From: Bacillota bacterium
GTDB lineage: Bacteria; Bacillota; Clostridia; Peptostreptococcales; Anaerovoracaceae
Assembly: GCA_029218545.1 (NCBI GenBank)
Contig: JAQXRN010000241.1
Location: forward strand, 1 to 36,211
Length of the DNA stretch: 36,211 nt
Reading direction: 5' to 3'
Under the pieces are notes generated by a model, which was not told the origin of the DNA, did no database searches, and worked only from the letters and a program-made list of their open reading frames with translations. A program made the position numbers and the translations under genes. This document shows, in pieces, positions 27,626 through 28,495 of the stretch (the first letter of the stretch is position 1; each line of letters starts with the position of its first letter).

Positions 27626-28495
27626 ATGACAGACAAAACAAAATCCGTGCTCTTTGCACTGACAACAATATTGCTGTGGTCTTCCGCCTTTCCACTGACA
27701 AAGGTTGCCACCGCATATATCCAGCCGAATGCTCTGGGATTTCTTAGATGCAGCATTGCGGCGGTTATTCTGATAATAATAGGAATAATTAATAAGATTA
27801 AACTGCCCCGCAAGCCATCTCATGTGCTCCTGTTTTTTCTCTCAGGGGGACTCGGCTTCACCCTTTACATGATCACCTTCAATACAGGGATGTTGACCCT
27901 TTCGTCAGCCATGGCAAGCCTTGTTATAGCTACAACGCCGGTACTTACAGCCATTGGAGCTTCAATTATTTATAAAGAACGGATAAAACCTCTTGGCTGG
28001 GCCTGCATTGCCGCTGCCTTTCTCGGCGTTGCAATTCTCCTTCTATGGGACTCGCAGCTTTCCATTAACAGCGGCTGCATATGGATATTATGTGCATCCT
28101 CCGTATTCTGCGGATATAACCTTATGAACCGTAAGCTCTTATCCATGGGCTACAATGCTGTCGAATGTGTAACCTGGAGCATCTTATGCGGCGCCCTGCT
28201 GCTGCTCCCCTTCGCACCGGCAGCAGCAGCCCAGGTGGCCGGGGCCACCTGGGAGGCATTGCTCACCGTGGTCTATCTGGGAGCAATGCCCAGCGCCGCG
28301 GCGTACCTCTTTTGGAGCCGCGCCTTCTCCATGGCAAAAAAAACAAGCGACGTCACAAACTTTCAGTTTCTGACACCACTTGTCTCTACAGTTCTTGGCT
28401 TTATTATACTTGGTGAAATCCCCGGTGTTTCCACACTGGTGGGAGGTATAATAATCATCTCAAGTATTGTCCTTTTCGGATTAAAAGGCAGATAG
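27626..28495 (+). CDS. EamA/DMT family exporter
   Basis: A 289-residue membrane protein with two EamA repeats (about residues 7-140 and 150-287), ten hydrophobic segments in all. Seen: LLWSSAFPLTKVA at the start of repeat one, SLVIATTPVLTAIGASIIYKERI, and in repeat two FQFLTPLVSTVLGFIILGE. Family members export amino acids or metabolites; threonine or a related amino acid is a contextual guess from the aldolase neighbour. Oddity: codons in about 28190-28333 are strongly GC-rich and packed with inverted repeats, unlike the rest of the gene. It ends two bases from the convergent trxB. Confidence 0.9.
   Translation: MTDKTKSVLFALTTILLWSSAFPLTKVATAYIQPNALGFLRCSIAAVILIIIGIINKIKLPRKPSHVLLFFLSGGLGFTLYMITFNTGMLTLSSAMASLVIATTPVLTAIGASIIYKERIKPLGWACIAAAFLGVAILLLWDSQLSINSGCIWILCASSVFCGYNLMNRKLLSMGYNAVECVTWSILCGALLLLPFAPAAAAQVAGATWEALLTVVYLGAMPSAAAYLFWSRAFSMAKKTSDVTNFQFLTPLVSTVLGFIILGEIPGVSTLVGGIIIISSIVLFGLKGR
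28196..28331. repeat. Cluster of back-to-back perfect inverted repeats in a GC-rich block
   Basis: Four perfect dyads follow one another: CTGCTGCTGC/GCAGCAGCAG (28196-28205, 28220-28229), CCCAGGTGGCC/GGCCACCTGGG (28230-28240, 28243-28253), GGCATTGCTC/GAGCAATGCC (28255-28264, 28281-28290) and the palindrome CGCCGCGGCG (28294-28303). TGGAG/CTCCA (28313-28331) is a weaker fifth. The whole lies within the EamA coding sequence. Confidence 0.9.

Follow-up and report, generated by a model that had tools for sequence, protein, structure and literature searches.

The GC-rich segment of the EamA gene and its predicted fold

The window, by which we mean the whole stretch of 36,211 nt analysed here, contains an intact gene for an EamA-family transporter of 289 amino acids. 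The assignment is based on its open reading frame, on full-length orthologs and on two stretches matching PF00892 (5.8e-35; 121 bits against a curated cut-off of 28.2). Codons 189–235 of this gene have a GC3 of 0.81, compared with 0.46 for its remaining codons, and no 48-codon stretch in any other open reading frame of the window exceeds 0.604. A sequence-only reading of this DNA had described such a switch to GC-rich codons within an AT-rich genome; the switch is clearly present, but the AT-richness is only mild (the window has 40% GC). GC and GC3 averages over a sample of genomes were left out of the analysis because masked contigs had distorted them. Reading frame and family similarity continue unbroken across the segment, as had also been stated, with no gap relative to an ortholog of 64–65% identity. 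Because no EamA ortholog was detected in five congeners, in which the best matches were distant paralogs, the gene has probably been gained, or repeatedly lost, in this lineage.

The following features were delineated in and around the segment.

27626–28495, plus strand: EamA-family transporter gene, intact
28190–28330, plus strand: GC3-rich segment (codons 189–235)
28188–28299, either strand: closed four-helix cloverleaf, predicted by folding
28188–28194: closing stem P1, left strand (GCGGCGC, 7 bp), predicted by folding
28196–28229: hairpin H1, arms 28196–28205 and 28220–28229, 10 bp, 14-nt loop (dyad scan)
28230–28253: hairpin H2, arms 28230–28240 and 28243–28253, 11 bp (dyad scan)
28255–28290: hairpin H3, arms 28255–28264 and 28281–28290, 10 bp, 16-nt loop (dyad scan)
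28293–28299: closing stem P1, right strand (GCGCCGC), predicted by folding; overlaps the palindrome at 28294–28303

The three perfect dyads lie exactly where they had been reported, with arms of 10, 11 and 10 bp, gaps of 0 and 1 base and loops of 2–16 nt, and the 10-bp palindrome CGCCGCGGCG was likewise recovered at 28294–28303. Folding of positions 28186–28300 added a 7-bp stem flanking the array, which the earlier reading had missed. With this predicted stem closing the array, the whole becomes a cloverleaf with four unpaired junction bases. The MFE of this region is −76.3 on the plus strand and −78.6 on the minus strand, corresponding to z-scores against dinucleotide shuffles of −5.9 and −6.1. 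The EamA segment is hence modelled as a cloverleaf within coding sequence, composed of three nearly abutting hairpins and a closing stem, with the protein still encoded.

In this segment the protein has many Leu and Ala residues, and pairing is favoured by GC-rich codons, so a suitable control must preserve both. We therefore shuffled the codons of the segment between positions for the same amino acid, keeping protein and codon content. The observed MFE of −82.5 kcal/mol was reached in none of 2000 permutations (−61.0±4.3), and for a shorter segment of 114 nt one permutation in 1000 reached the observed fold. Three perfect dyads with arms of at least 10 bp never occurred in 20,000 trials under each of four null models. 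The EamA array is thus not a chance product of the encoded protein and the codons used.

Recurrence of the fold in unrelated genes

We scanned 845 kb of the genome that contains the window (G000; about 40% of 2.08 Mb) for runs of perfect hairpins. The scan yielded exactly three closed arrays of three perfect hairpins, all of them intragenic, and block-shuffled copies of the same 845 kb contained arrays of three in 0 of 40 cases. Besides the EamA array, these are:

G000:C262, 7769–7859 (L103), gene on the minus strand: array in a SpoIIE-like phosphatase gene (perfect-hairpin scan)
G000:C51, 7623–7714 (L159): array in a malate/lactate-dehydrogenase-like (MDH-like) gene (perfect-hairpin scan)

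Both gene names are our assumption from recognised sequence motifs, and only EamA was assigned by a family search. The three arrays have a closely similar geometry (arms of 10–11 bp, gaps of 0–3 bases, spans of 91–95 bases) and no common sequence, and their loop sizes and orientation vary. The hairpin helices of this class comprise about one helical turn (9–11 bp) and the closing stems 5–8 bp. In the EamA, SpoIIE-like and MDH-like copies the closing stems have 7, 8 and 5 bp, lengths obtained in flank shuffles at frequencies of 0.0019, 0.0008 and 0.0196, respectively. Codon permutation reached the fold of the MDH-like segment in 0 of 1000 trials, and the same result was obtained for the SpoIIE-like segment in each of three species.

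A folding scan returned 453 cloverleaf-like MFE folds in 16,702 scanning windows, and branch number alone is therefore useless as a marker. The three arrays rank apart from all others, with a shortest stacked helix of 9–10 bp and about −80 kcal/mol; the next-ranked folds have a shortest helix of 8 bp and −38 to −46. A covariance model of the SpoIIE-like copy (R1) recovered two congeneric copies and missed the EamA and MDH-like copies at genome level. With a structure-only model (R2), derived from base-pair-shuffled synthetic sequences, the latter two scored 34 and 27 bits with filters switched off and were lost under default filters. No Rfam family matched at the gathering score or at E-values up to 1. 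We regard the cloverleaf in the EamA gene as a member of a class that recurs in this genus.

Two further candidates were rejected. A possible fourth copy in the TatD gene beside the SpoIIE-like gene was weak (codon permutation 12/1000 in the own sequence and 119/1000 in that of G002), and L231 in G003 was not significant (93/1000). The tatD stretch itself (L103:8226–8375 in G000:C262, minus strand) is GC-rich and cloverleaf-like and is closer to its counterpart in G002 (L208) inside than elsewhere (nucleotide identity 0.87 versus 0.77).

Distribution among relatives and origin of the arms

The SpoIIE-like fold is common to G000, G001 (MFE −74.6) and G003 (−83.2), and three other congeners lack it. 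Nucleotide identity to G001 and G003 is 0.83–0.86 inside the fold compared with 0.53–0.56 in the rest of the gene. Amino acid identity is raised likewise (0.82–0.84 inside, 0.46–0.50 outside), so part of the nucleotide identity reflects constraint on the protein. Two base pairs are altered on both sides, one in H1 and one in H2. In H2, CAGCCTGCC/GGCAGGCTG corresponds to CAGGCTGCC/GGCAGCCTG, by which a C-G pair becomes G-C and Ser and Arg are exchanged between two positions. With three sequences, these paired double changes do not exceed what shuffling gives (109 of 500 shuffles do as well). Synonymous changes fall largely in the H3 loop. To judge from these comparisons, the SpoIIE-like fold has been retained across three species, which is our main argument that a fold of this kind can be kept.

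For EamA and for the MDH-like gene, the array is known from a single assembly. The closest relatives compared were congeneric species, and orthologs share about 65% nucleotide identity. The MDH-like gene occurs in all five congeners with the same length in this region and without the fold (−24 to −37 versus −73.6). The closest EamA orthologs (L052, L053 and L034; 60–65% amino acid identity) contain no array and have MFEs of −32 to −56, and the alignment to the closest of them, L052, shows no indel. Orthologs with the same protein, ordinary codons and no dyads, which the sequence-only reading had named as refuting the feature, thus exist for EamA; they refute deep conservation of the EamA copy but not the feature itself.

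Comparison of the individual arms revealed an asymmetry in some stems. Nucleotide identity to orthologs lies below the ortholog–ortholog level by 0.23 in arm H1R of EamA and by 0.15 and 0.27 in arms H1R and H3L of the MDH-like gene, while the partner arms are unchanged. In MDH H3L, the Thr-Glu of a TEGR motif that is uniform in five congeners has become Gly-Ala, and amino acid identity in this arm is 0.50 to orthologs versus 1.00 among orthologs. The asymmetry is clear for EamA H1, MDH H1 and MDH H3 and not seen in the remaining stems. Three EamA residues in or beside H1R and H2R (A199, W209 and E210) occur in none of 32 orthologs. The arms of the EamA array encode motifs conserved in the family. 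G-U pairs are few in the arrays, one to three of about 42.

Sequence comparison therefore shows that the arrays originated in place, neither by insertion nor from a dispersed repeat, because the MDH-like genes of the congeners lack both fold and indels and the SpoIIE-like fold is found in only some congeners. For EamA, this agrees with the earlier statement that the segment is not a simple insertion. Hairpins are known to be formed and preserved by template switching, which produces perfect stems in one step (PMC8794818). Overwritten arms beside partners that are conserved for the protein fit short-range template switching, although such a fit is not proof.

Possible explanations and role of the fold

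The explanation that we prefer, and to which we give about an even chance, is that the stems were made by template switching during replication of coding DNA and that at least one copy was then kept for its fold. Arms would be rewritten as reverse complements of neighbouring, protein-conserved arms, and short-range switching would write perfect Watson-Crick stems at once, even where this alters residues. The resulting four-helix fold would stay where it is useful or harmless, and the SpoIIE-like copy would since have been retained across species. The high GC3 of the EamA segment reaches beyond the arms and is not explained by arm copying alone.

Similar events may have left a functionless by-product, in which quasipalindrome correction or template switching goes unchecked under weak surveillance of hairpins and stems persist at any site where the protein can accommodate them. 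We consider this rather unlikely. In its favour, the arms are perfectly Watson-Crick paired, some residues conserved in orthologs were overwritten (MDH H3L), and two of the copies, EamA and MDH-like, are confined to one species. SbcD is a subunit of a nuclease that cuts DNA hairpins. None of the five congeners gave a detectable match to it, nor did most of the genomes sampled from the family, whereas all sampled genomes of the other families of the order did, some of them below the curated cut-off. A full-length SbcD match is nevertheless present in G000 itself (G000:C4:5657–6370), so that simple absence is not the cause unless this contig is misbinned; the gene may have been regained, or the contig may indeed be misbinned. 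The by-product reading also has to account for near-identical geometry at three loci, for significant closing stems and for a SpoIIE-like copy kept in three species. A different course, stepwise point substitution under selection for mRNA structure (pausing or stability) with no template switching, would suit the paired changes in the fold common to three species and the clustering of synonymous changes in the SpoIIE-like H3 loop. This appears improbable, as the EamA and MDH-like copies would need many coordinated changes, no intermediates were found among the relatives, G-U pairs are few, and both strands fold about equally well.

The sequence-only reading had offered a segment recombined from a GC-rich relative and a domesticated palindromic repeat as possible sources, and both are disfavoured. 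Import was probably not involved, and we rate it as very unlikely. It would explain the elevated GC3 and the fact that codons 214–235 are nearer to the GC-richer orthologs L053 and L034 (nucleotide identity 0.76–0.77) than to L052 (0.70). Across the whole segment, identity compared with the rest of the gene is 0.62/0.62 for L053, 0.60/0.63 for L034 and 0.58/0.65 for L052. A search for a DNA donor yielded no convincing candidate among 395 genomes of the order and no match in plasmids or viral contigs, the dyads are absent from the GC-richer orthologs, and residues 199, 209 and 210 match no ortholog. GC-rich codons alone do not give the fold either: GC-rich synonymous resampling reached the MFE in one of 2000 trials and three dyads in none of 20,000. 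An in-frame insertion of a dispersed palindromic repeat, as in Rickettsia, is scarcely plausible. Tandem palindromes within coding sequence would be expected of it, but a DNA search of the own genome returned only the segment itself, no indel separates it from the closest ortholog, the arms carry family-conserved motifs, and the three arrays have no sequence in common. An assembly artefact or chance is just as hard to credit. The assembly is of the metagenome type with 266 contigs, but the frame is intact, chance is excluded by the controls above, and the SpoIIE-like fold is present in three separately assembled genomes.

Since at least one copy, that in the SpoIIE-like gene, has been kept across species, the fold itself probably has some function, either in mRNA or as single-stranded DNA. 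The simplest effects would be a slowing of ribosomes or a change in mRNA decay. As the stems pair equally well on both strands, a role in single-stranded DNA during replication is also conceivable. Among the three ideas of the earlier reading, a structured element slowing translation within a membrane protein comes closest as far as the structured element is concerned; the link to membrane proteins does not hold, because the same fold occurs in two genes for soluble-type proteins. We further propose, as a tentative and rather doubtful generalisation, a sequence-independent element in which a four-helix junction of constant geometry is repeatedly carved into the coding sequences of unrelated genes in this genus and kept for its shape, at the level of mRNA or single-stranded DNA, while the protein stays intact. 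The arrays raise the questions of how perfect stems originate and whether shape alone can be selected within a protein gene. With one copy present in three species and another absent from five congeners, they provide a natural before-and-after set that allows tests of template switching as a maker of structure and of selection on mRNA shape on top of the protein.

We found no description of such hairpin arrays in coding sequence in the literature searched, and known systems resemble them only in part. Hairpins made by template switching (Monttinen and Loytynoja 2022, PMC8794818) likewise have perfect reverse-complement arms close together; their paired multi-base changes and the use of one arm as template have candidate counterparts here in two base pairs of the SpoIIE-like fold and in the arms of some stems. 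That study concerns RNA genes, whereas the present arrays combine three hairpins with a closing stem and recur with similar geometry at three bacterial protein-coding loci. Rickettsia palindromic elements also place palindromic DNA within open reading frames but are sequence-related insertions, and the present arrays are neither inserted nor related in sequence. In conserved RNA structures of coding regions (cis-acting mRNA elements), as probably in at least one of the arrays, constraint on the fold is added to that on the protein; the arrays differ from them in matching no Rfam family and in occupying unrelated genes with unrelated sequence. The single-strand initiation sites of G4-type phages share the three adjacent hairpins, in about 100–140 nt, and are sequence-specific, non-coding phage origins.

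Several other hairpin clusters were observed. In another genus of the family, the murE gene (L221:1501–1600, G007:C11) has two adjacent hairpins of about 10–11 bp and a closing stem (codon permutation 3/1000). Three GC-rich hairpins lie side by side at an intergenic site in another genus of the family (L037:439–504, G387:C43); their loops measure 3 nt, and the segment has a GC content of 0.85 and is single-copy in its genome. Perfect hairpins of 13, 11 and 10 bp lie next to each other in another family, apparently between genes (L045:245–324, G559:C9). Finally, an intergenic stretch of G000 (L086:1261–1385, G000:C150; MFE −59.9, z −5.8) contains three strong hairpins, the first of which resembles a terminator, together with a closing stem of 5 bp.
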